DNA of 64,000 bases from NCBI RefSeq assembly GCF_026151205.1, contig NC_087077.1, positions 8,733,983 to 8,797,982 on the forward strand, in the 5' to 3' direction. Source of the DNA: Bolinopsis microptera. Lineage: Eukaryota; Ctenophora; Tentaculata; Lobata; Bolinopsidae. This document shows positions 7,316 through 42,900 of this stretch, piece after piece. Positions within the stretch are counted from its first letter, which is position 1; each line of letters starts with the position of its first letter. The translations under genes and the position numbers were made by a program. Below the pieces are notes generated by a model. That model saw only the letters and a program-made list of their open reading frames with translations. It was not told the origin of the DNA and ran no database searches.

Positions 7316-10300
7316 CTAATCACATATGTCATTGTGAGTGTCCACATCCAGAGTTAAGTCCACTTTATAGGCCTCGGTAGTCTCCGACTTACAACCTCTG
7401 AGACCAGCAATAAAGACGCTGGGTTTGGGAACACTGGTACCCTTTACTCGTGTAGTTTGGGTGTCTTGTGTCTTTGGTTGGTATATCTGAGAGGGGGTTG
7501 AAATTGAAGTGGTAAGTCCTAGGTTTTTCTAAATAACTGGTTCGGTATGAGGTGACCTCAGTGAGGTCGCGTATCTAGACATAAGTAAAATAGTGAGCTG
7601 CCTCTGTGTGAAAACATCTGCTAACCTGGCAGCCTACCAAGTTCCTGCCAGGCTGCCAAGTTGCTGCCAGGCTGTCAGCAGGCACTTTATAATTTCTATG
7701 CAATTCAGGGGCCGAAAAGGAATATGTCTGAGACACAGCTGTCGGTGCCGGATTGTTCAGAGCACAGCTGTTTCTTAATTTTAGATTATAACCCACATGT
7801 CGTACATAATTTTGTCGAGCGATATGTACCGTGGACGAATGCAAAAGTCATTAATTCTCAGTAACTTTTGTAAACATCGCATGACGATCGTATTTTCCTC
7901 TACAATTTATTATCCCTCGTCCATCATGCGGTTATTGTGGGTTCAGCTAGTCGTATCATCACTGTAAACAGTCACCTACACAAATAGGCTTATTTCTAGG
8001 GCCCGATGTAATTGCTATGACCAGTTTACTGGTCAACTGGTGTTTCAGTGTCCCTATTTTTGGTTACAATCGGTCACTTGTCAAGGTATGTAAGGTCATT
8101 CGGCGAATTTTCTTTGAAATAAAATTATGTATTTGTGTAACAATTTGAAAGTTTACTGATTTAAAAAAACGATAAGCAGTGACCTTCGGCACTTGAAATA
8201 TCCTAAATCCTCCATTGATTTTTTATCAAAGATATTGTTAGATTGTGCCGTAAAGGTAAATAATTGTTTTATCAAATACTTGTTTTGTTAATAGTAGTTT
8301 TACCTGTGTAGCGTTGTTTCTCCTAAAGTTGCTGCCGTCAGTCTGGACACTGTGGGTGATCCTTGTTCTCAGATTAGCTAACTTTATGGCCTTCCTCCTC
8401 ATTTCCCACTCATTCCACTCGTAGTCCGGGTCTATGTTAGATTCTATTGGATGCACCTGACGGATATTTTAAAGTGGTGGTATAATTATTTATCAAAATA
8501 TGATATTAATATCTAAATCATTTGGTGCAAAGTATCTAGAAGAGATATTTTGAGAAAAGAGCCTGTAAAATAGGTATTTTACAACCACCACTCTACAAAC
8601 TTATTAGTGTTTTACGTTACATCACGTGGATAAGATATACGACTTTAATATATAAGTGGTATTTAGCATCATCCATCTGCATCATCTATTGTATCTTCAG
8701 TAAATTGCCACAAAATTCATTATTATTACTATTTACATGATAACAGCCCCGAAATTACAACACCATCTGGCCGCACGCGCATGTTTCAACCTACAGCCAC
8801 TTTGCTACTTTTTTTTTTATTGAAATCTTTCAATTATTATCATCAGAATTTATTACAATATCAATGTTGTATAGAATTTCTAAAAATGGACTAGAGAAAC
8901 CAAAAAATGCCTTGACAAGTGTACAGCGATGATAACAATCAGGGGACACCAATACACCCAAATAACCAAACAAAAGGCCTCGAGAGACCTGATGAAAAGT
9001 CGAGCAATTACATTGGGCCCCAAGTGCAGAAGGAGAAAAATGGGCAAATAATATGAGCTGTGAACTTAGGAGGCATTTCTAGGTTTTTAAGAATAATTGC
9101 CACAACCCAAAAATTCTCAATTACAATTGGCTGATTTGTAATATTTCTAATGGAATGAAGTTTTAACGATAAAATTTAAATAATTGAATATAAAAGACTA
9201 AATCAAAATTGTATCCGAATAAAGCAAAAATGCGTGATGAGTACCTCAAAAAAAAAATTAAAACAAAAATAATAGAGAAATACACTACCCGTAGTCTGGA
9301 GAAAAAGAATTGTCAGGATCTGAACTAGGGTCAATATCTACAGATGCAGTACAAACATGTTCCTTCCAGATGTGTTTAATAAGTTCTGTTTTAAACACAC
9401 CTGGTCTGATAATCTCTCGAAGGGAAAGAGGAAGTCGGTTCCAAGTGAGATGAGCTCGATAAAAGTAAGATTTAGATACCTTACTCGGGATTATTATGAC
9501 CGGGATAAAGTGGTGGGTTTAGGGTAATTTCGCCATATTTTTCCCGAACCACATTTTCACCGGTCGTTAATAAACCCGCCTACTCAGCTTTTAGGGTTCC
9601 CAAGGGGTATGGGTGCTCATATTTTAATCGTTGTCTTATATTCACTAAAGAAGACTATTGGGACACTTGTTGTAGGTTTTTCGACTTCATTTGGCTAAAA
9701 TTGCAAAAAATTCACCTTTTTGCCCAATTCGTGTCATATATCCTTATTGTCAAATTTGATTTAAATAGGCCAATTTTTAATTTCTTAGGTATTGACTATC
9801 TCTACATAATGAAATAGGACTCAAAGTAAAAGTAACAGTTAAATTAAAACTTGAATTAATTAAAACTGATGAAAGGGATGATCCAGATGAAGATAACGAA
9901 GATGATTACAACTTATTGGAAGACTAAACAGCTCTCCCTTTATCTTAATATCGATCTGGTTGTTACGCTTCAAATGTTAAAAATTATTTTCCATCTAGTT
10001 TGATTAACCACGAGTCATTATTTCTGTCTACTTTCAACAATTATTGATAATTCGACTTGTTTCACAAGTTTTAGCAATGCGAAAATTTCTAAACTTGCTT
10101 ATCTCTAATAAGGAAATTTACATCTGAGACAAAATTTTTGAATCTAAAATTGAAAGGTTGGACACCGGTAAAATGGCGACCGGGAAAATGTGGTGGGTTT
10201 TGAGCAATTTCGCCATATTTTTCCTGAACCATATTTTAACCGGTCGTTAATAAACCCGTCGTAATAATCCCGAGTAAGGTATAGCTGAGCCAGGTGGAAT

Positions 10301-13300
10301 TGAAGATATTACTGATAAGTGATCGAGATGTGAGCTTCTCAGTCGGCTTGACCCGGAGAAGAAAGTAAGGTACTGAGGCAGAGTGGTGCATGGGTGGTAT
10401 TGATGCACTAGGGAATGAAAGAACTTGAGATCATGGTAATCAAACCTGTACTTTAGGGGCAGAATATTTAACTGTTTACAATGGGCATTATAGATTTCCT
10501 CTACACTATAGCTTACACCGTAATCATTACGAATCCATTTGAGGGCCCTTTTCTGCAATCCTTCAAGCCTATTGATAGTGCTACTGGACGCTGGTCGCCA
10601 AATGATGGGACAGTGTTCGAATATTGAGCGTACAAGAGTAAGATACAAGACTCTTCTCTTGTTCAGATCATTAATAAAATGACAATTTCTCTTAAGCATG
10701 CCAAATTTTTGGTTAGCTTTACCATATAGAGCATCGGCCTGGCTATTAAAATTTAGATTAGACGTCATGATTATGCCTAAATCTTTTTCAGAATCTGTAT
10801 AATCAAGAAGAGTTTGGCCCATAGAGTAAGTGTAACGTGTAAATGGTAAAATGCCATCTAAGGGAGACCACCTCTTAAGTATAGCTAAGACCTTACATTT
10901 ATCAGGATGAAACTTCATCTTATTAGTTCTTGCCCATGTCATGAGATAATTAATATCGCTTTGAAGTATATGGTGGTCTTCCTCTTGGGATATCTCTCTC
11001 CAAATTTTAGTATCATCAGCGTATAAAAGGATATTAGTGCCCTGAGAAAGTCCAGAATATATATCATTTATGAAAAGAACAAAAAGTGTTGGTCCGATTA
11101 TTGACCCTTGAGGAACACCTGACAACACCGGTAGGGTTGCAGAGATAGCCCCATTAACAACTACACATTGCTGACGTCCGGAGAGGTAACTTTTCATAAA
11201 TTGGAGAAGCATTCCATCGATGTTATAATAAAATTTTAGCTTGTATAGTATTAAGTCGTGGTTAACGGAATCGAATGCTTTGGCAAAATCGAAGTAAACA
11301 ATATCAGATCTAATGTTCTTGTTAAGAGAGAGGGATAGGCTATCGCAGAATTCAACCATCTGAGTTGCACAAGATTTGTGAGGCAGGAAACCATGTTGAC
11401 GAGGATCAATTTTATCATAACATCTACTCAAAAGTTCATCTCGAATAATTCTTTCCATGACTTTCATAACTAAGCTAGTCAAAGATATTGGCCTATAATT
11501 CTTAATGTCATTCTTGGAGCCTTTCTTGTGTACTGGAACAACAATTGCATATTTCCAATTTGAAGGTAGGAAGCCGGATACATAGCACTTTGTGAAAAGA
11601 ATCTCCAGTGCTGGGGCTAACGTAAAGGCACATTTTTTAAGAACTTCACCATGGATTTTATCCGGTCCCATAGCTTTTCTAGTATTCAAATTCTTGAGAA
11701 TATCTACTATCCTAGACGAACTGAAAAGGGTAGATACATAATCAATATCATCCTGTGTGAGTGTGTTATCAACATGTACATCATAATCACTAGGCGATGA
11801 GAACTGTTGATGAAAAAAGGTATTAAATAGGTTTGCTTGGTCAGAATGATCACTTTTGTGTACATCTTCTAGGTGAATTTGTTCAGGTATGCGAGTATTC
11901 TTAGATGTTGCTTTTACATAGGACCAGAATTTCTTTGTAATTAGATTCGAATCATCCTCGTCCTCAAAGCTAGATGCCATCTTGTTGGAGGCAATTTTCT
12001 TAAAATCGCTTCTGCTTTTAGAGAACTTAAAGTACTTCTCAGCCTTGCAGGAAGGGTCCGTGGTTTCTTTATAACTTTTGTGTAGCCTTTCTTTTTCTAG
12101 GCAGGCCTGATGAGACTCAGCGTCAAACCAAGGAGGTTGAGCCCTGCCTCCAATTTAAATATATCATTTCATGTACTGATCAGTGGACCAAAGGATGTTC
12201 TCCGCACAACAGCGTATATTAGCATTTACAGGACTCCGCACAACAGCGTATATTAGCATTTACAGGTCTGACCATTTAAACTCCATATGGACACGTTTTT
12301 TTTTAAGTGTGGTGAGTTGCTGATTTCACTTTTTTCAAAGTAGAGTTCACAAAATGAGGAAAAAGTCGCAATGCTTTTTAAAGTACAACCATAAATTTGA
12401 ACATAAGATGAAGTGAAAATATTCAGCAGTTGCGATTTGAAAAAACGAAGTGCCAGGCTCAAGCAGAATATGACTTATGAGCAATTAAACTGAGTGCCAA
12501 AAATCAGCAAACCATTTTAACCTCCAATTGACTAATTCCATTGATTTCGCCATATTTTGCTCAAATATTGTTCACATTACACTAGTAGATTGGAGTGAGT
12601 AACTGTTTTCAGCATTTTAGTCATGATTAGCAATTCCAGTAAGTGACAGAATTCAGTAAGAAGTCATTTTTATAGGGGGGGGGTGACATGTCTCCAATGT
12701 CTCCAATGTCTTTTGTCTTTTTTGAAAAGATAGGGTGCAGAGACATGTCCTGGAGACATTGGAGACATTGGAGACACAGCTTTTGGAGACATTGGAGACA
12801 TTGGGGACATTGGAGACATTGGAGACATTGGAGACAAAGCTTTTGGAGACATTGGAGACATTGGAGACACTGGAGACGTAGATGTATGATTGGAGAAGGA
12901 GGAGGATCTAGGAGGAGGATGACCCAGGAGGAGGACTCAGGAGGAGAAGGAGGAGGATGAGGACTCAGGAGGAGGACTCAGGAAGAGGACTGAGGAGGAC
13001 TGAGAAGGAGGAGGACTGAGGAGTACTGAGGAGGATGGCTGAGTAGGATGGCTGAGGAGGATGGCTGTGGAGGATGGCTGAGGAGGATGGCTGAGGAGGA
13101 TGACTGAGGAGGAGGACCTAGGAGGAGGAGGACCCAAGAGGAGGAGGACCCAGGAGGAGGAGGAGGACTCAGGAAGAGGACTGAGGAGGACAGAGAAGGA
13201 GGAAAACTGAGGAGTACTGAGGAGGATGGCTGAGGAGGATGACTGAGGAGGATGACTGATAGGGAGGAGGAGGAGAAGAAGGACTGAGGAGAAGGAGAAG

Positions 13301-16300
13301 GAGGAAGACCTAGGAGGATGAGGACCCAGGAGGAGGACTCAGGAGGAAGAGGAGGAGGAGGACTCAGGAGGACTGAAAAGGAAGAGGACTGAGGAGAACT
13401 GAGGAGGAGGACTGAATAGGAGGAGGAGGAGGGGGACTGGGGGAGGACTGAGGATGAAGAAGACTGACGAGAAGGATGAGGAGGAGGACTGAGGAGGAGG
13501 ACTGAGGACTGAGGAGGATGAAGAGGAGGAAGACCTAGGAGGAGGACTCAGGAAGAGGACTGAGGAAGACATAGAAGGAGGAGGACTGAGGAGTACTGAG
13601 GAGGATGACTGAATAGGATGACTGAGGAGGATGACTGAGAGGGAGGAGGAGGAGAAGAAGGACTGAGGAGAAGGAGAAGGAGGAGGACCTAGGAGGATGA
13701 GGACACAGGAGGAGGACTCAGGAGGAAGAGGAGGAGGAGGACTCAGGAGGACTGAAAAGGAAGAGGACTGAGGAGGAGGAGGACTGAATAGGAGGAGGAG
13801 GAGGAGGGGGACTGGGGAGGACTGAGGATGAAGAAGACTGACGAGAAGGATGAGGAGGAGGACTAAGGAGGATGAAGAGGAGGAAGACCCAGGAGGAGGA
13901 GGACTGAGGAGGAGGATGAGGACTGAGGAGGACTGATGAGGATGGCTGAGGAGAATGGCTGAGGAGGATGACTGAGAGGGAGGAGGAGGAGGAAGAGGAC
14001 TGAGGAGGAGGAGTAGGACTGAGGAGGAGAAGGAGGAGGACCTAGGAGGAGGAGGACCCAGAAGGAGGACTCAGGAGGAGGAGAACTCAGGAAGAGGACT
14101 GAGGAAGACTGAGAAGGAGGAGGACTGAGGAGTACTGAAGAGGATGACTGAGGAGGAGGAGCAGGATGAGAAGGACTGAGGAGGAGAAGAAGGAGGAAGA
14201 CCTAGGAGGATGAGGACCCAGGAGGAGGACTCAGGAGGAAGAGGAGGAGGAGGACTCAGGAGGACTGAAAAGGAAGAGGACTCAGGAGAACTGAGGAGGA
14301 GGACTGAATAGGAGGAGGAGGAGGGGGACTGGGGGAGGACTGAGGATGAAGAAGACTGACGAGAAGGATGAGGAGGAGGACTGAGGAGGAGGACTGAGGA
14401 CTGAGGAGGATGAAGAGGAGGAAGACCTAGGAGGAGGACTCAGGAAGAGGACTGAGGAGGACAGAGAAGGAGGAGGACTGAGGAGTACTGAGGAGGATGA
14501 CTGAATAGGATGACTGAGGAGGATGACTGAGAGGGAGGAGGAGGAGGAAGAGGACTGAGGAGAAGGAGTAGGACTGAGGAGGAGAAGGAGGAGGACCTAG
14601 GAGGAGGAGGACCCAAGAGGAGGAGGACCCAGGAGGAGGAGGAGGACTCAGGAAGAGGACTGAGGAGGACAGAGAAGGAGGAAAACTGAGGAGTACTGAG
14701 GAGGATGGCTGAGGAGGATGACTGAGGAGGATGACTGATAGGGAGGAGGAGGAGAAGAAGGACTGAGGAGAAGGAGAAGGAGGAAGACCTAGGAGGATGA
14801 GGACCCAGGAGGAGGACTCAGGAGGAAGAGAACTCAGGAAGAGGACTGAGGAAGACTGAGAAGGAGGAGGACTGAGGAGTAATGAAGAGGATGACTGAGG
14901 AGGAGGAGCAGGATGAGAAGGACTGAGGAGGAGAAGAAGGAGGAAGACCTAGGAGGATGAGGACCCAGGAGGAGGACTCAGGAGGAAGAGGAGGAGGAGG
15001 ACTCAGGAGGACTGAAAAGGAAGAGGACTGAGGAGAACTGAGGAGGAGGACTGAATAGGAGGAGGAGGAGGGGGACTGGGGGAGGACTGAGGATGAAGAA
15101 GACTGACGAGAAGGATGAGGAGGAGGACTGGGGAGGAGGACTGAGGACTGAGGAGGATGAAGAGGAGGAAGACCTAGGAGGAGGACTCAGGAAGAGGACT
15201 GAGGAAGACATAGAAGGAGGAGGACTGAGGAGTACTGAGGAGGATGACTGAATAGGATGACTGAGGAGGATGACTGAGAGGGAGGAGGAGGAGAAGAAGG
15301 ACTGAGGAGAAGGAGAAGGAGGAGGACCTAGGAGGATGAGGACACAGGAGGAGGACTCAGGAGGAAGAGGAGGAGGAGGACTCAGGAGGACTGAAAAGGA
15401 AGAGGACTGAGGAGGAGGAGGACTGAATAGGAGGAGGAGGAGGAGGGGGACTGGGGAGGACTGAGGATGAAGAAGACTGACGAGAAGGATGAGGAGGAGG
15501 ACTAAGGAGGATGAAGAGGAGGAAGACCCAGGAGGAGGAGGACTGAGGAGGAGGATGAGGACTGAGGAGGACTGATGAGGATGGCTGAGGAGAATGGCTG
15601 AGGAGGATGACTGAGAGGGAGGAGGAGGAGGAAGAGGACTGAGGAGGAGGAGTAGGACTGAGGAGGAGAAGGAGGAGGACCTAGGAGGAGGAGGACCCAG
15701 AAGGAGGACTCAGGAGGAGGAGAACTCAGGAAGAGGACTGAGGAAGACTGAGAAGGAGGAGGACTGAGGAGTACTGAAGAGGATGACTGAGGAGGAGGAG
15801 CAGGATGAGAAGGACTGAGGAGGAGAAGAAGGAGGAAGACCTAGGAGGATGAGGACCCAGGAGGAGGACTCAGGAGGAAGAGGAGGAGGAGGACTCAGGA
15901 GGACTGAAAAGGAAGAGGACTGAGGAGAACTGAGGAGGAGGACTGAATAGGAGGAGGAGGAGGGGGACTGGGGGAGGACTGAGGATGAAGAAGACTGACG
16001 AGAAGGATGAGGAGGAGGACTGAGGAGGAGGACTGAGGACTGAGGAGGATGAAGAGGAGGAAGACCTAGGAGGAGGACTCAGGAAGAGGACTGAGGAGGA
16101 CAGAGAAGGAGGAGGACTGAGGAGTACTGAGGAGGATGACTGAATAGGATGACTGAGGAGGATGACTGAGAGGGAGGAGGAGGAGGAAGAGGACTGAGGA
16201 GAAGGAGTAGGACTGAGGAGGAGAAGGAGGAGGACCTAGGAGGAGGAGGACCCAGGAGGAGGACTCAGGAGGAGGAGAACTCAGGAAGAGGACTGAGGAA

Positions 16301-19300
16301 GACTGAGAAGGAGGAGGACTGAGGAGTAATGAAGAGGATGACTGAGGAGGAGGAGCAGGATGAGAAGGACTGAGGAGGAGAAGAAGGAGGAAGACCTAGG
16401 AGGATGAGGACCCAGGAGGAGGACTCAGGAGGAAGAGGAGGAGGAGGACTCAGGAGGACTGAAAAGGAAGAGGACTGAGGAGAACTGAGGAGGAGGACTA
16501 AATAGGAGGAGGAGGACTGGGGAGGACTGAGGAGGAGGACTGACGAGAAGGATGAGGAGGAGGACTGAGGACTGAGGAGGAAGAGGAGGAGGATGAAGAG
16601 GACCCAGGAGGAGGAGGACTGAAGAGGAGGACTGAGGATGAGGACTGAGGAGGAGGAGGAGGACTGAGGAGGAGGTGGACTTGGGGAGGACTGAGGAGGA
16701 GGAGGACTGACGAGAAGGATGAGGAGGAGGATTGAGGAGGACTGATGATTGAGGAGGAAGAGGAGGAGGATGAAGAGGAGGAGGAGGAGGGACCCAGGAG
16801 GAGGACCCAGGAGGTCCGGAGGAGGACCCAGGAGGAGGACCCAGGAGGAGGACCCAGGAGGAGGACCCAGGTCCCAGGTGGAGGACTCAGGAGGAGGAGG
16901 AGAACGACTGAGGAGGACTGAGGAGGAGGAGGAGGAGGAGGAGGAGGAGGAGGAGGAGGAGGAGTCTCCAAAAGCTGTGTCTCCAATGTCTCCAATGCCC
17001 CTAATATCCATTTTATGTCCCTAATGTCCCCAATGTCTCCAATGTCCCCAATGTCCCCAATGTCCCCAATGTCTCCAAAAGCTGTGTCTCTAATGTCCCT
17101 AATGTCCCCAATGTCCCCAATGTCTCCAATGTCTCCAAAAGCTGTGTCTCCAATGTCTCCAATGTCTCCAATGTCTCCAATGTCTTTGTCTTTTTCGAAA
17201 AGATAAGGTGCGGGAGACATTGGAGACATGTCACCCCCCCCCTTTATATCTGAATACGACTGCTCTATTGATGGTTCTTGTCAAAATATTAAAAAGATCA
17301 AGGCATAACTGTGTTTATTTCTGGATAAGATAATGATTGGTTGTGTCTTTAAACTAATTCCTACATGTCTATGTGCCAGCCATCAGCAAAAAGTCACACA
17401 TGTATCAGCTTGAAATTTAATTTTTTCTAATTGATGAAATAATTATCGAAATTTCAGTTCTCTTGTTCAGTCACCATATTGACTTTTAGATTGAAGGTGC
17501 CATCAATCAGTTAAAATAAGGCCTGAACTCTGTACTGCTTACACTCAATTATGTCCCGAGTGCCCAAATTCAGCATATCAGTCATATAGATAAATGATGT
17601 AAAAAGACAAAAATTGTCTATTTCTTGATCCATGGGTGTACTAGTGTTAGTTTAAGCATCTATTTCGGAAAGTAATGTGTTCATAAAGGGGTCAAAACAG
17701 ATAATAATATTAGAGTGCCACTAATCAGCTGTAGTGACTGCTGCAGCCAACGTGGGAATTACCAACTATTGTGAGTCAATATCAGCATTATTAATCATCT
17801 CAAACCACCGGATTGTTTATGTTTCAGATACGAATCTTAGTTAAGTTATATCCTGATAATTTGAACAGCATATGTGTCCTGAAAATCAGTAAAAATGACT
17901 TATTTGACAGAAATAGTCATTCTTACTGCTAAATGGCACTCATTTAGTTTAAAATATTGTTTGAGGGAGCGGTGTGCCTTTTTTTGTTTAATGTGGCACA
18001 ATTTTGTTGCACTGTGTGCCATTATTCAGCTTAAAATGACTTCTTTTTCTAGGCATATACCAATGGTAAATCACATAAAATGTTTGCTTTGTAAGCAGTG
18101 TTGTGATAACCTGCTATAACTAACTTAAAAATAACACAATGAACTTCAAAAATCAATAGTATGTACCTAATTTCCATGATGAACATAATATTGTTGTCAG
18201 TAATCTACTTTATCGTGCCAATAGTCAGCAAAAAGTCATTTCTATGAAGATTTTAAGCTAAAAATATTATTTATAAAATGACTTTTTGTTGAATTAGAAC
18301 ACACAATATCGTTAGATTTTGTAAAGAATCATCTTGATGAACCTGCCTATACTGTCAGACATCAACTGTATAGTGCCAATATTCAGCAAAGAGTCATTTC
18401 TTTTGAATTTTTAATCGTGATGAATTTGACCTAAAAATGACTTTTTACTGAAAACTGACACACTCTTAATTTTATTTTCGAACAGAATGCTGTTGAGCAG
18501 ACTTATTCTCGACAGTATGATTGAAAAACGTTCTAATTTGTTGCTGTCTAGCTACTGCAATGTAAAAAAAATCAATTGTAATTTTGTGAGTGAATTTTTA
18601 CTGAATACAGGCACACAATAGGTTTTTCCTAGGTTACATTATTACAGACCAACGTTTCTTGAAAGTTGTTACAGTTCATTCACAAGCTGATCAAAAGTAT
18701 GGGCCTTGTACAACCCCTTCAACCAAACTAGAAATTTTACCAAACAAATGACTGTTTGCTTATTTTGAGCACAGTTCAAGTATTCCTACCAAAATCCAAA
18801 TATTCTTTGAATAATTTTGAGACATAATCTGAATTTTGAACAGAAAAGTCGCAAAATTCAGTTTTTTATGGGCGTTTTCAACATTATAGTCCAAAATGCT
18901 GAAAACTGGCACTGCCTTGGTACTATATTATGACATATTAACTAAGTAATGGATTTTCCTTACAGGGGCAGTTAAGATTGAAGGCATATCTGTGCAACAC
19001 TTTCTAGTTACTAGTCATTTCACTTTCATTGTCAAAAGTGTCATGGCACTCAAAGTCATTTTCACCACACTTAAAAAAAAACGTGTCCATATCCAGGATA
19101 ACGAATACCATCTGCCGAACCTATGCTGGCAATTCTTTACTATCTTTCCATAGATGAGCTTCTGGTCTATCTGTCATCATAATAATATGGTATAGTAGTA
19201 CCATTAATTGTTAGTAATATTAATGATAACATTTTCCCAGTACATCTCTTGCAAGTTGGAAAGATATCGATGACCCATAATCCATATATATATAATAGTT

Positions 19301-22300
19301 GTTTTTGACCACTTTAAACGCATTTCAATGACCAATGACCAGTTGCAGTTTCAACAATTTTTGTGCAATTTTTGGAGCAATTTTCATTACTGACTTTACG
19401 TTGGCAACTAATTTGCGAAGGACAAATAAAACAATGAGTAAATCTGAGTTTCATTTGTCCTCCTCGTGATTATATTAGTTTTCAATTCAATTGAACTTGC
19501 TAAGGCACGTGAAGTCCGTGATGAAATTGCTTAACTCACGCTCTTCCCCGAATCCCCACTGCCAATACGTATTCTATAAATAACGTTTTATCGTGATTGA
19601 AATTGTCTATTATTCACAATCCAGCCCGCTTCAATCTTGAGGTACCTACCTCGGTCTGAATGCCAGAGTCTCTTTTTGTCAGAGGTTTCTCTATCATGTG
19701 ACCCGGTTCTGCACTTTTACCGTACGGAGTAATCGTACTGAACTGCATGTGAAGTTCCAGCAGCTGGATCAACTCTGGGGACCGCTTAGCTGCTTCTGCT
19801 ATGTGCGCTATGTACCTGTATAAAACAGTCATTTTCAGTCAGAAAGACCTAAAGTTTATCAGTTAGATCTACACCTGGTGAACATTCGGTTCTTAAACGG
19901 CGTTTTAAGCAGTCGTAAAATGGTGGTAAGCGGCTCTTAAACGGTGGTCGGTGTAAAACTGCACATAAAGACATAGAATATCAGTATTATAAACGGACAA
20001 AAACCATAAGGTGCGCACGATTAAGTTTATAATAGTTTATAATAGTTTATAATAGTTTATAATAGTTTATAATAGTTTATAATAGTTCCCCCATTCTTAA
20101 AGTTCCCCCATCGAGTTGTATAAAGCTCTCTTCATGTTTGGGGCTAAATTAAGATAGGAATAATTTATAATTATCACCAGATTTGGCATTGTTTAATGTT
20201 GTATAAAATGTATGTTTCCGGTACAGTTTTTATGATAGGCATTTTAACCTAGCACCTTCTAGATATCGTAATCAGGAATGTAACTACTAACAAATATTTG
20301 AGACATCTCATAAACACCTCATAAATGAGTGACCTTATAACCATGAGTTTTTGAATTATTTCTAACATAAAACCGTAATGCGTGAAAGGCCACGGGTCAT
20401 ACGGCATATTCCTCTTTTTGGAGCTCCGCCAAGTATTCGTAATCGCAGACGGTGAAACATCCTTTTTATTTTTGGTTCAACCGAACGTGATATTTGGGGG
20501 GGGTCCAACCCGATCAATTCCGATCATTCCGATCCCGATTTTGGCCTTATCAACCCTCATATCGGAAAAATCGGGAAAATTTAAATCTTCCCTCTGAGGT
20601 TTCTAGGCGATATAGGTAGCTATTTCTGTACTTAAATATGACAAGAAATCGATTGGTGGTGGTCCCAGAACCCCAAAACGGTATCTTGTTCCAAACAAGA
20701 ATCGTTTCGTCCGAAAAACAACACAATGTCGTACCAACTCTTGTTTGACAGAAACATCCACCCCGGTCCACAATTGAAAGAGGTACGGTTGGTAATAACA
20801 ATCGTAACAAATAGCGAACGCTTTAGTAACTTTTGATTTAAATTGTCTCCACAATTTGTAACAGGCTATCTGCAGAAATGGGTAGCACGGTTAATGACTA
20901 TGGTCCTTTCTCAAACTTCCAATCCTCAGTTAGATACAAAGAATAGTCTACACAATTTTCAATAACATTAAAAGGGATGAAAATCACTTTATTTATCAAA
21001 ATCTTTATTTATCATGTAACAACTTTTCCATAGTACTGGAGAGTAAAACTCTGTTAAACAAAAAAATTCTCGGGCACATTTTGAGTCAGTAACAGTAACA
21101 TGTCAATATGTTACAGACTCAAATGCGTTTAAAAACATTTTAGTAACAATAAATTGTGTAAACTAATGAGGAGGAGGAGGAGGACTGAGGAGAAGGAGGA
21201 CTGAGGAGGACAGAGGAGGAAGACTGAGGAGGACCAGGACGAGCACTAGGAGGATGAGGACGAGGACTAGGAGGATGAGGACGAGGACTAAGGACGATGA
21301 GGACGAGGACTAAGGACGAGGAGGAGGACGACTGAGGAGGAGGACTGATTAGGAGGAGGACTGATTAGGAGGAGGACTGATTAGGAGGAGAAGGAAGAGA
21401 AGAAGGAGGAGGAGGATGAGGAAGAGAAATGAGGAGGAGGAGGAAAAGGAGGAAGACTGAGGAGAAAGAGGAGGACCGAGGAGGCCTGAGGAGGAGGAGG
21501 ACTGAAGAGGAGAGGGAGGACTGAGGAAGAGGAGCAGGATTGGTGTGGAGGAAGACGAGAAGGAGGAGGACGAGAGCGAGGACGAGGAGGAAGACTGAGG
21601 AGGAGGACTGTTAAAAAGGAGAAGGACGAGGACTGAGGAGGAGGACTGAGGATGAGGAGAAGGAGGACTGGGGGAGGACTAAGGACGAGGAGGACTGAGG
21701 AGGAGGACTGAGGATGAGGAGGAGGAGAAGGAGGACTAGGGAGGACTGAGGAAGAGGAGGACTTAGGGAGGACTGAGGAGGAGGAGGACTAAGGAGGATG
21801 ATGAGGAGGAGGACTGAGGATGAGGAGGAGGAGAAGGAGGACTGGGGGAGGACTGATGAGGAGGAGGACTGGGGGAGGACTGAGGAGCAGGAGGATGACT
21901 TAGGAGTAGGAGGAGAAGGAGGAGAAGGAGGAAAAGGATGAGAGGGAGGAGGAGGACTGAGGAGGAGGAGGAGGACTTAGGAGTAGGAGGAGAAGAAGGA
22001 GAAGGAGGACTGGCGAGGAGGAGGACTGACGAGGAGGACTGACGAGGAGGAGAAGGACTGCGGAGGAGGAGGAGGACTGAGGAGAAGGAGGAGGAGGAGG
22101 ACTGACGAGTAGGAGGAAGAGGAGGACTGAGGAGGAACAAGATGACGACTGAAGAGGATGAGGAGGATGAGAAGGAGGACTGGGGGAGGACTGAGGAAGA
22201 GGAGGACTTGGGGAGGAGGATGAGGAGGATGAGGACGATGAGACTGATGATGACTGAGGAGGAAGACTGAGGAGGATGAGGACGAGGACTAAGGACGAGG

Positions 22301-25300
22301 ACTAGGAGGATGAGGACAAGGGCTAATGAAGAGGAGGAGGACGACTGAGGAGGAGGACTGATTAGGAGGAGAAGGAAGAGGAGAAGGAGGAGGATGAGGA
22401 GGAGGACTGAGGAGGAGGAGGAGGATGAGGACTGAGGAGGAATACTGAAGAGGACGAGGACTAAGGACGAGGAGGAGGCGGAGGACGACTGAGGAGGAGG
22501 AATGATTAGGAGGAGAAGAAAGAGGAGAAGGAGGAGGAGGAGTAGGAGGAGGAGGAGAAGGAGGAGGATTAGGACTGGGGGAGGACTGAGGAGGAGGATA
22601 AGGAGGAGGAGGACTAAGGACGAGGATGAGGACGAGGACGATTATGAGGAGGACAGAGGATGAGGACTGATGAGGAGGAGAAGGAGGAGGAGGATGAGGA
22701 GGAGAAAGAGGAGGAGGACTGGGGAGGACTCAGGAGGAAGAGGATGATGACTGAGGAGGAGGATGAGGACTGAGGAGGAGGACTCAGGAGGTGGACTCAG
22801 GAGGTGGAGGAGGATGAGAAGGACTCAGGAGGAGGAGGACGACTATGAGGAGGACTAAGGAGAACTGATGGGGAGGAGAAGGAGGATCAGGAGGAGAAAT
22901 GCAGAGGATGAGGAGGAGGAGAAGGAGAAGGAGAAGGAGGAGGACTGGGAGTAGGACTGAGGAGGAGAAGGGGATTGAGGAGGAGGGTGAGGAGGACTGA
23001 GGAGAAGGACGAGGACGAGGACGAGGAGTCAGGAAGAGGACTGAAGAGGACTGAGGAGGAGAAGGACTCAGGAGAAGGAAGACTTAGGAGGAGGAGGACA
23101 TCTAAATGTTTTGTCTGTTTTTGTCCGCCCTACTTTTTGTCCGTTTTGAAAATACAGGGTACCGAACGGACACAAAACATGATCCCCCAGCCAAGCATGT
23201 GTTACGATACAAATGTACTTGACTATACATTTAAGGTGCAGTGTACTAGTGATATTATGGTATGTTTAAAGACCGGACTACAAAATATAACCCTAGTGTT
23301 GTACTTATACATAATAACAAGTAACAGGGATAAAATTAATGAGCAGAAACAATCAATCTCAAGTCAAGAGGCCAAAGCACTCGGGTCTGGGAGTACATGA
23401 CAACTCCAACTAGTAGTGAGCATACTAGCCCCTGCAGTGGAAAAACACATAAAACATACTATTGGAATGTCCAATTAGTTCGTTTTCTCATAACAATATA
23501 GCATATTTAGGGGTTTTTTATCACTTCCTCACTTCTGAGAGGTTTTAGAGATCGATTCTCTAAAATTTCTCAATTTTCCGATTTTTCCGATTTTTCCGAT
23601 TCCGATTTTGGCCTCATCAACCCTCATATCGGACATCGGGTTGGACCCCCCCCCCCCCCATATTTATAGTTATTAAGTTTTGGCACGCCTTATTTCGGGC
23701 TCATGTTATCGAATATATTGTACATCAAAACATTAAGTTCTAGTGCAGCCGTATCAGCATACATTCGAAAATAGGCCATTTAATTAAGTTTTAACTTATC
23801 ATACAGATGCTTTTGATTAATTTGGAAAACAAAAAAGTTTTATCAGCAGCGTTTTCTTAAATGATTGATTACATTCTGTAATGTAAAGGTGTCTTGTGTT
23901 GCGACTGTTTCACTCTAACTTTCACTCACCGGTCTGGGTCAGCAGCAAACTTGACAGCTGCTTCTTTAGAAGTAAAACAGAAGAAGTGATCCTTGTACCT
24001 CAGTACCCCAATAAGAGGATTACCTGAAAAGTGTATCGTTGTTACACCAATAGTTTTTAAATTAACACTAGAAAAAAATACCACTGCAATTCGGATAAAA
24101 TTATTTAAGCATAGCATGCCAGCTGATTGCTAACCGAGGGAACTATCAATATAGCCCATTTACCTGGTAATAGAAGTCTGTCGTGGACGGCGATGCTAAA
24201 CCCGCAGAAGCCCTTGTACTGAAGTGGTAGCTGACTGAAGTTCCGGGTTGTTTCCGGAAACAGGAATTCCAAGTTTTTAAAGTGAGGTGCGTGTTCCACC
24301 CGACCCTCCAGACCACTGGTTTCAGTTATCCTGAATAAGGAATTGAGTTGAAAAATGAAAGCGCTTTAGTTTCAGCTAAATCCGCTCTCAAATATACAAT
24401 TTTTCTACTTTTGCTTCAACAGATTTCACGGAAATCTAATTTCCATGTTTTTGAAGACGACCCCTCACCTCTCCTCGTCACTCCTCAAGATAAGGCCCGT
24501 GAGGAGGGGTTGTAAGATACTATCTGGCAACACTTCCTTGTGAGACCGAGTGAAGGGCTCCAAGTTGGCCTGGATGTTGCTGATAACGGAGAGAAGGACC
24601 ATCTCGTCCTGGAACCCAGTCCATATCTTAGCCAGCGAGATGAACTTAGGGTATACCTGATAAACCATTCATGTCAGGGAGTGGGAGGAGGTTAGGGTAC
24701 ATAAGATATGAAATATCGGGGGAATAAATTTAGTAATTATCTTCCCTTCATGGATATGATAGCCTAGCCCTAACAACCCAATGCCCATAATTCCCAAAAA
24801 TATCACCTTATCTCTCATTGTTGTCGCCAATTTTGGCTGTTACTCGTATCCAAATCCTTTCACTAGACATTCCTATCCAGCTATTCCTACATATTTCTTA
24901 TTTTTGATTTCGTCATGCCCCACGAATTTGTCTTTCAGTCGGGGTTCGGGTTGGGATCGGGGGTCATAGACAATAGACATGCTTAGGCAGGTTGAAAATG
25001 ATTGTTTATTGATTTGGTATAGTTGGGGGGGCGTCGGATTTTTTAACTATATATTATAACGATTTAGTGAATATTCTAAATTTTGTATGAGTACAATACC
25101 TGGTTAGTTGGGACAGCCGTTTTGCTCTGAATAGTGTTCTGCAGCTGAATCAGCACCGACCTCAAATCCCTCTCCAACGTGTTCACTTGATCTGTTGCCA
25201 CAACAACATCGTTCAGCAGCACCTAGCACATAGGTTACTGTTAAGTTCGATTCCTTTGATATTCGCATATTCAACAATATTATCTCATATTATATTTCAG

Positions 25301-33990: not shown

Positions 33991-36900
33991 TCACTTAATT
34001 TTTGCTCTATTCATCAACTCCTCAAGTTTTTTGACCCGTTTGTTGAGAGTGTCCTGATCAGCAGCTAGCCTGCGCTGGGCACGCTCCAATCTCTTACGCT
34101 CCTCCAACAAAATAGCACGTTCTTTGCCGAACTGTTCCGTCTGTAACGCTGCCCAATCTTTACATAGCTGTGTGTGGTCGTTACATTGTCTGAAGGGATG
34201 CATATTTGTTAAGGGTAAGCGACTAAAGAATACCTTCGGGGCTGTTCAGTCCTCAAAAGGTGTACAGCTATTTTTTTAGATTTTTACCGATTCGTGGCTT
34301 TTGAGACGAAGTCTCTTAAAGCCATCATCGAAGGGTGGAAATCGAGATAATTTTACGATATACGAGGATAGCGACCTAATTCGAGTCCGTACAAATATTT
34401 TAGCTAGTGCACATATCGTTCTAAAAGTTGCCTGTTTAGTTCTAGTTGCTATGGTAGCATCCGCAAAGTTGTTTTATATTTGCGGGTTGAATCATTGTCT
34501 TAAATGTATGGCGCTAAACATGAAGAAAAATCAATGATCAATTGATCATTCTGAGTTTAAGCCAAGATTATTACCAGATTACGATCAGAAGATATGGCAA
34601 TGCAGTGGCTGAATGGTGCACAAATATCCGGATATTTTGCAATAATCCCATTTGTTGATTTATTTATATCAGTTACCTGATATTTGTATATTTCCAAATT
34701 TCATGATGCCTAATATGCTGTACAATGAGCATAGCTTTGAAGTAGGACGAACAGAGGACGAACTTTTAGTTATCAGTATTAACAATATCATTGTAAATAT
34801 CACAAGCATATAAAACATTGCCACGGATATAACGTTAACAGGTGCACAATGCACTATCCACCAGATAGTTATTATAGTCCGACAGTGCACTATGAGGGAC
34901 ACTGGGGCAGTGACCGACATCAGACTAGTAATAACCGGTAGTGTTTACCACGTGACCAAGGATACCCCTAAAGAGAGACGCGCACCCAGTTTCTATGTTG
35001 ACCATATTTATTAAAACCTGAGCATTACCATGGTCACTGACCCAGAACCCATGGTCAGTCTCGCCTATGTCTCAGTCACCTTTTGCACTGTTCCACTATG
35101 CAGCTATGAATATTACTGATTGCTTCTTTTAGTGAATTTTCTAATCTATTAAAAACTGCATTAAATAAATCCATCCATATCATCTTATAAGCGGTAATCT
35201 GCTAAATCATAATTGATGAACACTTTCCCTTACTCGTTAAAACAATTTAAATGCTTGGAACTGCAAAATGTAAATAGAGTTGCATATGATTATGATTTTT
35301 CGATTTTGATTTATGGCAGCCATTAATCATCTAACTTGATTAATCCAAGTGACACATAGAATAGTTTCTGGACGTTACAGTAATTCGAAAGCCAGGAAGG
35401 TCCATTTTTCTTTTCTTGGGCATAGATAACTCAAATTTGTAGTTGATTAGAGGCAATATATTGTGATTTTACCCTAAGATACTGAAAGCAATGTTCGAGA
35501 CGATTTGCTCAGCTAGTCCATGAGGGTCTTCACTCTTCAGCATTATCAACCAGTTAGCCGGATAGCAGGTAAATGCATCACATCAGACTGGTACACTATA
35601 TTAGTGTCTGATATAATACCCTGCACAAAACAGATAAAATTATATGATTAATACAGTGCACCATAATAACAAAGAGAATATAGTCTGTTCTGTTAGACAC
35701 CATGGTGTACCAGTCTGATTCCGACTGATACACCATGGTGTCTAACAGAACAGACTATATTGTGCACTGTAAGGGTACTCATCATTAAACATTGTCAAAT
35801 TTCTATTCTGTTAATATGTTACTTTCGTCGTGGTAGAATGTTAAAATTCTACTTTCATTTCTTTTCAATTGCCGTGTCATCAAGTGATGCCGCTGGGTAA
35901 TGGTCCTATGGGTCGCTTTAATTAACAGTGGTGCCGCTTAAATGTTTACAAATTAGTATCAAGTATACGTAAAGTAACTCAGTTTCATAAAGTTGCGCCA
36001 CATATTAAAAACTGCAATTTTTATCTTAATATTAATTTCCCTTTAGGAAGGATGAGATTAAAGGTCCTCCTTCTACTATGCTTCATAGTAGCAGTATCTG
36101 CGGGCAAAAAGGGCAAAAATAAAAAACAACCAGCGACAGAACCTCCAATAGGAGCTTATGGAGAGGATGCAACCTTCATCCTCAACCAGCCTGTTACAAA
36201 AAACGCTAAAAAGTTCTCAAAAGTAATGAAAGACCAAAACGTTGTGGGTACATGTAGGTATCTGCTCTTCAAGGCTATGAAGACTTGGAACGATGCCAAA
36301 GATTCCTGTGACAGTCTCATCCTTCCCATGACACTCCGAGTTAAGGGCTCTATGGCGACCATCAAAACGGAGGATGAGAACAAAGACATGGTAATGCTAA
36401 TGAAGATGGCACATGGAGTAAAGCACGTAGGCGGCAAATATGACAGGTTAAACTGGGTTTGGCTTGGTATGAAGAAGATAATGAACACTGGAGTTCACCT
36501 TTCTAAAGAGGAAATAGGAGAGAAGAACTTCAACGCGTCTGAGTGGAGATGGGTGGACGGGTCTATCCCGGAGTGGTGGAGATGGCAGAGAGACATGCCT
36601 GATCAGGACTACGACAAAAAGAAGGATATATTCCAGGACAGAGTTTCTCTTAGCAAGAAAGGACGGTGGGATGATAGCTTCGGGCAAAAGAAGATGCCGT
36701 ACGCGTGTAACTACTGCGGTAAGTACATAGTGGTGCAGAAACACGTGAAATGGGACCAAGCTAAGGAGCTTTGTGAATCGATGGGACTGACCATGGCAAA
36801 GATCAACAACCGTGAGGAAAACGAGGAACTTGATATGGCCGCCAGACTGATGATGGGGGATGAAGTGGGTGAGAGAAGGTGGAACCAAACTAATTGGATC

Positions 36901-39900
36901 TGGATCGGGACACGGGAGGTAATGGATGAGGATGGTGTGGGGACTGGTGTCTGGCAGCATCACGATGGTACTGAGCTACTCTGGGAGAGCCCTCCGTGGG
37001 ACTTCAAGAGGCAGCCTGATAACGAGATTAGGGGAAAGAAGGGTGAGCAGCAGGTTTTAGCTTTCTCAAGGATCAACACGAAATGGGATGATTCCTTCCC
37101 TCATAGAAAGCGTCCGTTTGCTTGCATGTGTCCAGAGGCAGCCTGCACGACTAACATTTACTGAAGTGGAAACTGAGGAGAGGTCGGCGTGTAATAGGAA
37201 TGAGCTCGATTAATTTTCATTTTGTAGGTGTTAATTTCATTTTTGGTCAAATTTCTCCTCGTTATAATATTGTGACTTGTAAGCTTTGAAATTCTATTTC
37301 AATTAACTTTGTGCTCATTCATAGGTCGTAATATTTAAAGATTTGGGAGTTCTTCGTCATCTTTAGGATTTTAGTTGTATTGTATGAATTTATATTACTG
37401 CATTATAAAGTTATAACCAACATGCTTATCATTGTTTCCCACTGGTTTAATGTCACAAAAAACAGTCACATGAAACTTAAAGAAGAATGTTGTCTAGTTA
37501 CCGACTGTACAGTGTACATACCACAGTGAGTGGTTATTAAAATATGTAGCATTCAGCTCGGTCTATATCTCTAGTCTATATTTCATTACTTACTAATATC
37601 ATAAAGTCAAACTTACTTACATGATATTACGATCAATAATTAGATAAACCACATAGAATAATTTAAAAGGTAGCTTTTCTTTATTCGTAAACTGTTATCT
37701 CATCGAACTTCAACTAGCTAATCTCACCAAACCTCTACAAAGTTGAACCCGAATTTTAATTAAACGAGGTTAACAGGTGAGCTGGAATTGTTTTTTGTAA
37801 TTTAGCGAGACTAATCACCGACTCAAGTAGTTGACTTGTTACAACTTCTAAGAAACCACTGCGGCACGTACAACAGGTAAGATTGCGAGTTAACTCTGGC
37901 AATGTTTTCTTTAATAAAATAATGCAAATTCTTAGGACTAATATTTTCATTAAAATATGTTCTGTCACGTTTGCTTATGATTCCAGGGATAATATCCGGT
38001 AGTAGAGACTAGGTAGGACAAGTGAAACTACTGTTTAGGAGGAAACGCGAGCTTTCAGTGTGCTACACTTTCATCAGGCTCAAATTATTTGTTATATAGT
38101 AGTGTTGAAAGTATTAAAAGGATCCAGGATCTCATGTTTGCTTAATATTGTTGATCAGCAATGATAGTTACCTTACGAGACATATTTAAAAGGTATGAAA
38201 TTACACCTGGAAATACACTGGAGAGAGAAACGTCCCTGAACCAGAAGATCAAGAAGATCAAGAGGAACTTGACTTGTAATTTTTCAAATTTCATATTTTA
38301 TTTTATTGATTTTCTCAAATATTGGGTTTTATTTTTGTAAAATATTAAGAAATGATAAAAATCCCCAAATACCATGATTTAATTTGGGGTATGAAATGAG
38401 TTGGTTTTCGGCAAAAAAAATCCCATATTTTCGTTCCCAAATCATTTAGGTCAACGGAATTTCGTACATTTTAAATATGTCTCGTAAGGTACTATAAACT
38501 ACCGAATTTGTATATTAAATTCTCTCATATTTAATAAATTGTACTCTTCTCCACTTAGAGTTAGACACTAGAATTCTTTTGTTACAGACAGTGACACAAC
38601 GGTCCCGTCTGGAACATATCATTGCTAGACCTCACGTAACAATCACGTGACCAGCACGTGACCAGCACGTGACCAGCATGACCAACAGAGAGAATTATAA
38701 TTCTAAAGCAGCCTCATGAAAAGGAGTATCTCAAGTACCGTACATCAACTACTACTCGTATGAGGACCCGTCAGTAAGAGGGGCAGGTATAACCTAATAA
38801 CCTAAAAACTTAATAACTTACTTCTTATTCTATTAGTTATTAGTTAATACTTGTTGCTTGATCATGTAACTCAGTCGGAGATTAGTGAATCGTTACTAGG
38901 GGAAAACCTCTTTAATCTTTTAAACTATTATTGCTTATCTAGTTTACATAGAGAAGGAGTGTGGGACGTGGGTCTCCAAAACTGCGATCTAAAACTATTT
39001 TAGCATATTTGAAATTTCAAGTTCATTTTAACCTAAGACTCCGGGCTATTCCAAAATTTACAAAATTGCTATGAATTTATTTACAACTCATATTAAAGGC
39101 AGAAATTGAGCAACTCAAAGAACCAGCATAAAGAAATTTTTTTCAAGATTTCTACCCCCTCCCCTCTGTGTGGCATTCCGACATTAGAATAATTGTACAA
39201 TGTACATCATTGCGGTAAAAATAAACAAATATTTCAATATCAATCAGGAAGTATGAAGCCAAAGATCTTATTGATAGCTGTGATATTGGTAATTTCCAGT
39301 GGTGTAAACAGCCAAGAAGACGAAGTTGTCGAAGATGCAGTGTACGGTGAAGACGCATCCTTCATCCTCAACCAACCTGTGGCACTAAACGCTAAAAAGT
39401 TCTCCGAAGCACTAAAAGACCAGAGTGTGGTAGCTACTTGTAGGTACCTGCTCTACAAGACCTGGAAAGATTGGTATGAAGCCAAGGACCTCTGTGAGAA
39501 CATTACTCTTCCCATAACAACCCGGGGTAAGAGTTCCATGGCAACCGTTAAAACAGAGTTCGAAAACAAGGACATAGTCACGTTGATGAAGCTGGGGTTT
39601 GGAGTTAAAAGTGTCGGCAAAAATATAACAGAAACAACTGGGTTTGGCTGGGCTTGGAGAGAGTTGTCAACAATGACGTCAAACAGGACAAAAAGAAGAG
39701 AGGGGAAAAGTACTTCCTTCCATCTGAATGGAAGTGGGTGGACGGGTCCGAGCCGGTGTGGTGGAACTGGCAGAAGAAGATGCCCGACGGAGAGAAGGAC
39801 AAGAAACTAGAACTCTACCAGGACAAGGTTTCTCTGAGTAAGAAAGGTGAGTGGGACGACAGCCTGCAATACAAGACAATGCCGTATGCCTGTAACTACT

Positions 39901-42900
39901 GCGGTAAGTACATTGTCATTCAGAAACACGTGAAATGGGAGCAAGCGAAGAGCATGTGCAAAAGCTTTGGACTGACATTTGCTACAGTTAACAGTAAGCA
40001 GGAAAACGATGATCTGGACTTGGCCGCTAAACTGATGATGGGAGCAGACGTCGACCACAAGAGATGGAACGAAACAAACTGGATTTGGCTGGGCACAACT
40101 GAGGTCATGCATACCGACGGTACGGGATCTGATGTGTGGGAGCATCACGACGGTTCCCCTCTCCTCTGGGAGCCAAACTGGGACTTCAAGAGGCAGCCCG
40201 ATCACTGGGTGAGAAGAGGCAAGGAACAGACTGCTGTGGCTTTCTCCAGGATCAACACAAAATGGGACGATTCTTTTGTCTGGAAGAAACGTCCTTTTGC
40301 TTGCATGTGTCCTGACGCAGCTTGCACAACCAATATTTACTAAAAACAGAGATTTGGTTAAGAGGAGTTTGATTCAACATGGCGTGGCGACGAAATGAAA
40401 TTGGACACGATTTTATAGACTTTAAATGAAATAAATAAAAGTTTAGTGAATATTACGGTTAATTTGGATTGCATTTTATAGACAGCATTTCACTGCTTCG
40501 TCGAGTTAAGTAATCATAGTTGACACAAAAATAAAATGTATCTAAACTGACCTAATCAAGTCATCTCTCTGCTCAAGGATCCACTTTTCCGAATCATCCC
40601 GTGCATGTTGTAGCTGTAACTTCTCCTGCTCAAAGCGCTCCTTAGCGCCGTACAGCGCCGAGTATTCAGCTTCTAGCACCGAGAATCCCTTCGATATCTG
40701 GCCTAGTGTTAGATGAGCTCATGTTTTTTAAAGAAAACCATCTCCACAGTTTTTAAAACTGGAGAATGTCACCAATTCATTAATTTACCGCTTTGATTTT
40801 AAAAACAGAAAGTTATCAATTTTAAAACTCGCACCTAAAACAGATTCTTTGAGCTTCTCTAGCCCCGTGTGTTTATCAATATCCGGTATTTGGAAGTCTG
40901 TGAGTGGAGGCACCGCAGGTAATTCTTCCTGAACATGACTTTGTTAAGTCGAATCAAGAATTTAAACTTGCTTTTATTTAAAAGTAATTAATTTGAATAA
41001 ATAGGAGATAATCATGTTTTCCCACTGTTCTGGAGCACCACGTGACTGCAGTGCACGAAGCTGTATACTTGGGGCAAAATGACGAAGAAAATTTGAAGAA
41101 TGACATCATCAACAGAGTATTGTCTAAATGAATACCATGCAGCCAGTCAACGCCAGGGAAATCTTATTACATGATAATCTAAGAAAAAAAGTCACCCAAA
41201 AGCGAAATCACACCATGATCTATCATGGCGCATCAAACTCTTACCTTACCATTCGTAATTTGATACATGAAAATTACTGAGGGAGTGACATTAGTTCGAT
41301 ATCTTTATAAGGTCACTCACTTTATCTTAATCTAATCAGCATATATGATAGAGTGCGGAAGCAGATTTCTGGTCACTAATGTAGTGTAATATGGTAAGCT
41401 AAGTGCAGCAGGGTTTAGGCTTTAGATCTTTTAGAATATTCTAGTATAAGTGTTAAATAACCGTTAGGATTAGTGTTATAGATTATGGATGGTTTTGGAC
41501 TTTGGAGGACACGTGGTAGTCAGGGTAGTTAGTTAGGTTATATTATTGACAGACTGAGCCACGTGTTGCCGCGTAACGCAGTGCTGGAAATTCTCATCTG
41601 CCCCGTTACGCTCAGTTCTTCGAGTGGCTTGTTGGGTAAGGTTTATAAAATTACCGTTGCCGAAGAACACTGTAACGTGGCCGATGTGTCACTAGTATTA
41701 GTTTGATTGACTGTAATTCACGCTTCGAAACTTGTTGTTCGAATACACTGTTTCCTTTGTTCTTACCTAACTTAGGACTCGATCAAGTCATTCGATCTTT
41801 TAAAGTCATACGGCACTCAGTAACCAGTAAGAGCTAAAGTGAAATTGCAGAGCTTGAGAGCTAGAGATTTGCAGGTATTCGTGTACGAGACTTCGATATC
41901 GTACCCGTATATTTCTTTAAGTACCGTGTACGACACTTCAATATCGTGCTTGTGTATTTCTTAAGTTCTGTGTACGACACTTCTCTATCATACCCTTGTA
42001 CATTTTAATTACCCGTGTACGCCACTTCGTTACCGTACCTTTGTGAGCAGGCAGTGTTGACCATTGGTACGCCCCGGGAGGACTGATCTGGTTGCCAACC
42101 CTATTTTACACTAAATGGCATGCTAGCGAGCGCTTTGTTTTACAATTCACGATACTGTTTTGAATTGTGGCGTGTACCGCGTAAGACCGTGTTCTGTGAG
42201 GTAGCGGTGTGATTTAAGGGACCCTTTTAAATGAGGACTGCTTTTAATGTGTGATGTTTTTACTGTGTTATTTTTGTGTGTGCCTTTTTGCTGTCACTTG
42301 TTTGGCTTGTTGTCATAAATATCGTTGGTATTAAACGGAAAAAAGATTTAAAATCGATCACAGTTTACTCCTAGAACATATATTATTATTTGGATTTTCA
42401 GGTCGGTAATTTTGATTAATAGTACACAAGAATTGGTTTCGTGTGCATTCCTTATAGTTTTTAGCGCTGATCATTTGAATATAATTCAGCAGATCTCAGT
42501 AGTCAGTGTCGTTTGTCTAATTGATTTGCATCAGGAAGCTACAGGAAGAAAACTGAGGGTACACACGGTTTCTATTCATCACACAACAGTGCTGTGTAAC
42601 AAGAACAATATCACAACATTGCATTGCTACGGAGGCTTGCAAAAGATCTCGAAAACTGTCGTAATAGTCGATAGTTTATTTTGATGTCATCGACAAACTT
42701 AGTCGAATGCAAAAGATGAATCATCAGTGCGTGCATTCTGACGGTGGAAAACTATTCATATGTGATGTCAAGCGGAAATGCATCGTCCTTAAATTGTTAC
42801 ACAACAAACGTAAAGACATGCTTGAAGTTGACGTGGCTGACTTTGACAAAATGTTTCCGGAAGGCTTACCTCCGATATTGTGGATAGAGAATTCTGTTTA

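Follow-up and report, generated by a model that had tools for sequence, protein, structure and literature searches.

Poly-G-capped non-autonomous DNA transposons in the ctenophore Bolinopsis microptera, with a GGA minisatellite probably passed between their families by nesting

Transposons that spread tandem repeats, as well as transposons whose ends are built of repeated units, are known from several systems, with which we compare here two elements, A and B, lying in a window of 64,000 nucleotides of Bolinopsis microptera DNA (contig C6:8733983-8797982). Each of them begins with a run of G and ends with a run of C, and each contains a GGA/GGACTGA minisatellite. According to the accessible parts of PMC9659126 and PMC4596501, Xenopus Xmix/Xstir, miDNA4, the lepidopteran (GTCY)n elements and a miniature inverted-repeat transposable element (MITE) of P. 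gingivalis are likewise non-autonomous, have terminal inverted repeats (TIRs) and target site duplications (TSDs), and have spread a tandem repeat; the poly-G elements differ from them in their G caps, in ends made of an inverted motif around an oriented loop, and in an array probably passed between families by nesting. The foldback element Tetris is non-autonomous and modular as well, with internal tandem repeats and a link to satellite DNA, but the repeats of Tetris are ~220-bp units that make up its long TIRs (accessible part of PMC4079207), while in the poly-G elements the array is central and has a one-stranded polarity. KolobokP, in the accessible part of PMC9587614, is described with terminal direct repeats (LTDR, ~450 or 660 bp) that have their own TIRs, with solo copies, RR..YY termini and a TSD of TTAA or 3-5 bp; the poly-G elements are like it in the direct repeats with their own TIRs, the solo units and the RR..YY termini, whereas they have TSDs of 5-8 bp, units of ~55-120 bp and poly-G caps, and a coding frame was not found in the copies inspected. 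The TSDs of 5, 6 or 7 bp given for hAT5, hAT6 and hAT7 in the accessible part of PMC12730594 agree with 52 of our 63 scored copies, but no linked transposase was seen here and the hAT-type dinucleotide is absent before the G run. IS3EU/GingerRoot elements, as far as they are covered in PMC10045372 and PMC12730594, have 6-bp TSDs and TA..TA termini (TAYGG in fungal ones), and were set aside since the poly-G elements end in G(n)..C(n); Dada, which inserts in multicopy small-RNA genes and lacks TIRs (accessible part of PMC3706591), was set aside as well, since TIRs are present here and the sampled targets are a long interspersed nuclear element (LINE), a repeat, satellites and arrays. Such an end architecture was not found in the open-access literature on ends, repeats and ctenophore transposons, a scope that leaves Repbase outside, where the families may be filed; poly-G termini are not described in the accessible parts of PMC9587614, PMC3706591, PMC10045372, PMC12730594, PMC9659126, PMC11797021 and PMC12221973.

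Our analysis indicates, with a probability of about 0.8, that A and B are non-autonomous DNA transposons, two families in a clan of poly-G-capped elements, and that the array has been moved by nesting. In the 264,652,675 bases of the genome (232 contigs), exact A ends were found 131 times and exact B ends 205 times, the reversed-pattern controls giving 0 for both. When the first 100 ends listed for either family are compared with their neighbours, convergent pairs within 15 kb number 39 (A) and 40 (B), with a median spacing of ~3.1 kb, and the non-convergent neighbours of A and B are divergent in 0 and 3 cases and on the same strand in 1 and 0 cases, respectively. From these listed ends 20 A and 20 B regions were fetched, the choice being non-random and favouring odd lengths in B, which together with the window copies gives 21 A and 21 B copies. 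TIRs, TSDs and repeated copies are all present and no transposase of their own was seen in the copies inspected, as is characteristic of a non-autonomous DNA transposon or MITE. An earlier note on this DNA had described A and B with their coordinates, G and C runs, TTTATA and ATATTT flanks, inverted termini and arrays, all of which proved correct when read directly; its proposal that they are non-autonomous DNA transposons, ending in poly-G and flanked by AT-rich TSDs, is likewise borne out by repeated families, by TSDs and by uninterrupted targets elsewhere.

The two elements, which had been treated as one family, are in fact two separate families with differing ends, among at least six. Besides A and B we found C, with ends GnTCCAACTACA; D, with ends GnTGTCAYGTCCG (665 ends, control 0); E, with ends GnATCATGTT (155 matches, 39 of them in one satellite); and F, with ends GnTCCAAGGGGAAC. 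The pattern G8TCCAA, which covers B, C, F and perhaps others, occurs at 615 ends and its reversed control at 22, C- and F-type ends being pooled in this count, and a further candidate end, CACAAGAGCG..., was dropped with 2 copies only. All these ends have a common layout, namely G(n), a short cap, and a ~10-bp motif that differs between families and stands in inverted copies on both sides of a loop; the cap is TCCAA in B, C and F and TGACATG/TGTCATG/ATCATG in A, D and E. Between the two ends of an element the loop is direct and not inverted, so that the two ends together form a short terminal direct repeat, with separate inverted repeats inside either end. In this respect, the terminal 110 bases align directly, above all 200 shuffles, in 7/7 copies tested, besides the exact inverted repeat past the terminal run (21 bp in A, 11 bp in B), and the two loops stand on one strand in 19/21 A copies. 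DNA folding of eleven ends and two solo units gave z-scores below -3 in 7/11 of the ends: A (Table 1), D (-5.5 left, -7.2 right), E (-10.4, -4.8) and the one F end (-3.8), with -2.3 for a solo B and -4.2 for a solo C unit. Strong hairpins thus typify A, D, E and F but not B or C. Moreover, solo units of 91-136 bp including the runs occur, of which L012, L017 and L065 are flanked by 7-bp TSDs and the solo E unit L092 by one of 6 bp, while the solo E unit L066 has none. Even smaller are a micro-element of 47 bp (L090: 13 G, 25 bases and 9 C within GTATTGT, TSD 7 or possibly 8 bp) and L091, which may be what a deletion has left behind (32 G, 12 bases and 24 C within AGTATAT). The runs vary from 6 to 42 G and from 6 to 50 C, the minimum being imposed by the search patterns, with a correlation of 0.16 between the two ends of one copy.

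TSDs of 5-8 bp are found in 53/63 scored copies (A 17/21, B 17/21, C 6/7, D 5/5, E 3/4, F 5/5; the scoring left out L044, L050-D, L052/L053-D and L090-L092), and mismatched within-family pairs reach 5 bp in 22/934 cases. Their length is exactly 5 bp in 11 copies and 8 bp in one (TATATATA, ambiguous), and is hence not fixed at 6 bp as had been supposed. For two insertions the uninterrupted target is found elsewhere in the genome: the LINE site struck by D in L052/L053 is present in 61 exact copies and in two with a single mismatch (reversed control 0), and the repeat struck by A in L033/L036 occurs three times exactly and eight times with one mismatch (control 0). Neither joined site has a G run, so the elements are insertions and the G run is no part of those targets. 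Two F insertions give weak, low-complexity evidence, the joined 20-mer of the one in the L053 array having 27 sequence-strand matches including L052 and L053, and the joined site of the one in L050 having 0 matches at 20 bases and 1 at 16. In L047 (contig C2:2260100-2265700) an E element with the TSD ACTAA lies within a tandem satellite (CCCTCCCCCACTAA-like), which runs on to either side of it.

The minisatellite had been regarded as conserved cargo and as the sole content of the elements, and neither view holds. It is present in 21/21 A and 19/21 B copies, the two array-less B copies being solo units of 91 and 97 bp, and among the sampled copies of the other families in 4/7 of C, 3/3 long copies of E and 0/3 of F; in D it is found in 5/5 whole copies, and 16/17 midpoints lean to GGA or TCC (L077 only partly array). 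The array in A is flanked on both sides by subterminal repeats with a 9/60-bp period, and B has non-array sequence of ~660 bp to the left and ~550 bp to the right. E pieces adjoin the array in 19/21 B copies, always in the order E-left, array, E-right and with a constant strand relation; E-right is present in 8/8 D loci and E pieces in 3/7 C copies, while such pieces were seen in 0/21 A and 0/3 F. As E pieces border the arrays in B, C and D, the array probably entered these families inside a nested E element. Furthermore, E is at the identical inner position in two D loci, L050 and L069, as expected if a D-with-E composite was copied. The array polarity is fixed relative to the ends in 20/21 A, 19/19 array-bearing B and 20/21 orientable D copies (9/9 and 11/12; L078, with CACG at both ends, is omitted), and in the window both arrays are purine on the + strand, in line with the same polarity reported for them before. 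With orientation kept, the A loop is similar to the loop of E in 3/3 E versions (shuffle p ~0.003 each, uncorrected), so that A and E are read as sisters keeping the ancestral array, with B, C and D as recipients; the direction of transfer would then be from A/E to B, C and D.

Arrays outside the A and B ends point to the same clan. An array 28-mer gave 273 matches genome-wide, the first 100 listed making 75 loci. For 31 of these loci a listed A or B end is found at 6 kb or less (chance ~1.7%), and of the other 44, 10 are near a listed E end. GGA arrays without A or B termini, which the earlier note had named as a sign against its proposal, are therefore common; however, all 11 that were fetched of these 44 (mostly on contig C1) hold other poly-G ends or E remnants, nine having ends of other families and two, L041 and L049, E remnants only, at arrays without a poly-G pair. 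In these comparisons the E end reference was taken from L048, hence a self-match there. As to the idea that the elements mobilise or seed satellites, the carriage of purine minisatellites around the genome stands, while for the seeding of new satellites we have only an E-like cap in one locus: L089 (contig C5:339072-340908) is a satellite of ~42 copies of a 43-bp unit with a G run and then ATCATGTT, the E cap, and these 8 letters could be there by chance, given ~29,000 G8 tracts.

Taken together, we suggest that an enzyme supplied in trans, of one common type for all families, would pair the two ends and insert the element at AT-rich sites through a 5-7 bp staggered cut, giving the TSD; single terminal units can stand alone between TSDs. 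The G runs may grow and shrink by slippage at the ends, as the unlinked run lengths of the two ends suggest. The array would belong to the A/E lineage; an array-carrying E would have inserted into members of B and D, and into C directly or through B, and amplification of the resulting composites, with B, C or D ends outermost, would have followed.

Several observations weigh against this reading. No transposase or autonomous copy was found among the copies inspected, and the long copies owe their length to nested insertions or long arrays and have no coding frame of their own. The candidates for autonomous copies were all rejected: five long B copies (L003, L010, L013, L018, L019) each proved to be the canonical element lengthened by insertions, with overlaps of 4-10 bp; a 12-kb B pair on contig C5 is not a single element, its flanks differing between the two ends; a 12.7-kb A pair on contig C11 contains a LINE with D and F nested in it; and in three long D pairs (4.9-6.0 kb) the interior is array, with no other frame. 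A clean TSD is missing in 10/63 copies; by eye, L008, L031 and L058 at least have a matching word that is shifted outward by a few C. L033 and L036 have common flanks and may be one insertion copied along with its host repeat. The array-bearing C copy L043 has no E ends and instead a B-like right end. The loop comparison used hand-cut loops in 36 pairs and two orientations, and several opposite-strand pairs also reach p<0.02. Folding gave only -0.4 (left) and -2.2 for B, whose left end has no unusual hairpin, and -2.6 and -2.2 for C. Finally, every end search required at least 6-8 G, which places ends with shorter runs outside the sample. As an observation on its own, the ~3.2-kb insertion in the B copy L010 (L010:292-3484) has long TIRs (TTTTCTGACAAAAGTGCTTAAGTAACA) and broken frames with a DNCSAQNK-like stretch, and is possibly a decayed DDE transposase of another family.

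It is possible, though doubtful, that the elements are hAT-type MITEs (hAT5/6/7-like) whose short GGGG terminus was lengthened by slippage, the G run having no special role. Besides the published TSD lengths mentioned above, such an origin would fit with the plentiful hAT dimerisation-domain matches (150 scored at E<=0.001) and with the 29,318 matches of the G8-tract pattern genome-wide against ~650 expected from composition (~45x; the reversed control, 28,875, is uninformative), an excess which makes slippage plausible. Known hAT ends include the type CAGGGGTCC-AAC, with a CA/TA-type terminal dinucleotide, but here the G follows the TSD directly and CA/TA does not precede it. Moreover, only 1/148 typed hAT places is within 8 kb of A, B or E ends, among the ends listed, and a young hAT copy that was fetched has no long G run, although its ends were not located; the 8-bp TSD of canonical hAT is seen in the one ambiguous copy alone. 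Concerning hAT itself, L088 (contig C12:6590700-6595500) is a copy whose open frames measure 301 and 513 aa, and seven near-identical matches with open frames of 513-530 aa suggest recent activity. Membership in KolobokP or derivation from it is most improbable despite the matching layout, since the TSDs and the lengths of the terminal units differ as described, by which it was set aside; reading the copies by eye, without a family search, brought up no frame for a Kolobok DDE transposase or a His-Me nuclease. Hardly credible is the view that there are no transposons at all and that minisatellites and G tracts, abundant as they are in this genome, expanded in place between fortuitous words: the conserved convergent end pairs, the TSDs, and the F and solo units without array speak against it, and the uninterrupted targets of D and A already contradict it.

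For the array by itself, independent gain or evolution in each family, perhaps from GGA-containing subterminal motifs, would explain the array borders of A without E ends and the GGA held on one strand by the subterminal motifs of A, D and E; we regard it as decidedly unlikely in view of the E pieces that flank the array in B, in D and in some C copies, and of the same words in the A and B arrays, which align at ~72%, a value that low complexity alone may give. With regard to the G run, it could be recognised by the enzyme or be a product of slippage, and because G tracts are abundant genome-wide its recognition is unproven. The same abundance of G8+ tracts bears on the proposal of the earlier note that the run might be read as a structured (quadruplex or triplex) end. 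A bolder and rather improbable extension of the transposon reading is that an undescribed transposase lineage would recognise the end by a G run of any length together with a few bases of the cap. Even 25 bp between a G and a C run would then suffice for mobility, and the terminal palindromes would hold their loop constant as families swap the ~10-bp motif beside it.

Table 1. Features of elements A and B (window positions)
Feature	Position	Strand	Remark
Left TSD of A, TTTATA	12669..12674	.	sequence read directly
Element A, 4,568 bp, G9 ... C9 ends	12675..17242	+	orientation set from GGA strand
G9 run of A	12675..12683		read directly
A left terminal unit, made up of cap TGACATGTCTCC, motif AATGTCTCC, oriented loop TTTTTTGAAAAGATAGGGTGC and inverted copy of the motif	12684..12750	+	fold z -7.8
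A left subterminal tandem motif (TGGAGACAT)n	12751..12877	+
GGA/GGACTGA minisatellite of A	12892..16964	+
A right subterminal tandem motif	16978..17185	-
A right terminal unit, loop direct (orientation as at left end)	17179..17233	+	fold z -5.7
C9 run of A	17234..17242		read directly
Right TSD of A, TTTATA	17243..17248	.
Left TSD of B, ATATTT	20490..20495	.
Element B, 3,164 bp, G8 ... C14 ends	20496..23659	+
G8 run of B	20496..20503		read directly
B left terminal unit, common to 91-97 bp solo copies	20504..20566	+
Left internal remnant of nested family-E element in B	20826..20907	+	95% over 82 bp
GGA/GGACTGA minisatellite within nested E element of B	21168..23098	+
Right end of nested E in B, GGGGGATCATGTT... 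on - strand	23100..23188	-	run just 5 C
B right terminal unit, loop direct relative to left unit	23585..23645	+
C14 run of B	23646..23659		read directly
Right TSD of B, ATATTT	23660..23665	.

In the neighbourhood, a 635-aa reverse-transcriptase-like frame of a non-long-terminal-repeat element (10247-12154, - strand) stands just upstream of A, and two tandem C-type-lectin-like genes, with open frames at 35926-37164 and 39193-40343, lie at 36,000-40,400, both seen by eye.

To conclude, the reading of A and B as poly-G-capped transposons would mean that an early-branching animal lineage harbours a clan of transposons marked by a poly-G cap and by an inverted motif around a direct loop. It would also offer a readable example of how nesting can hand one minisatellite from one transposon family to another, a matter of interest for the dispersal of satellites; and if it is true that the enzyme reads the G run, this would be a new kind of end recognition.

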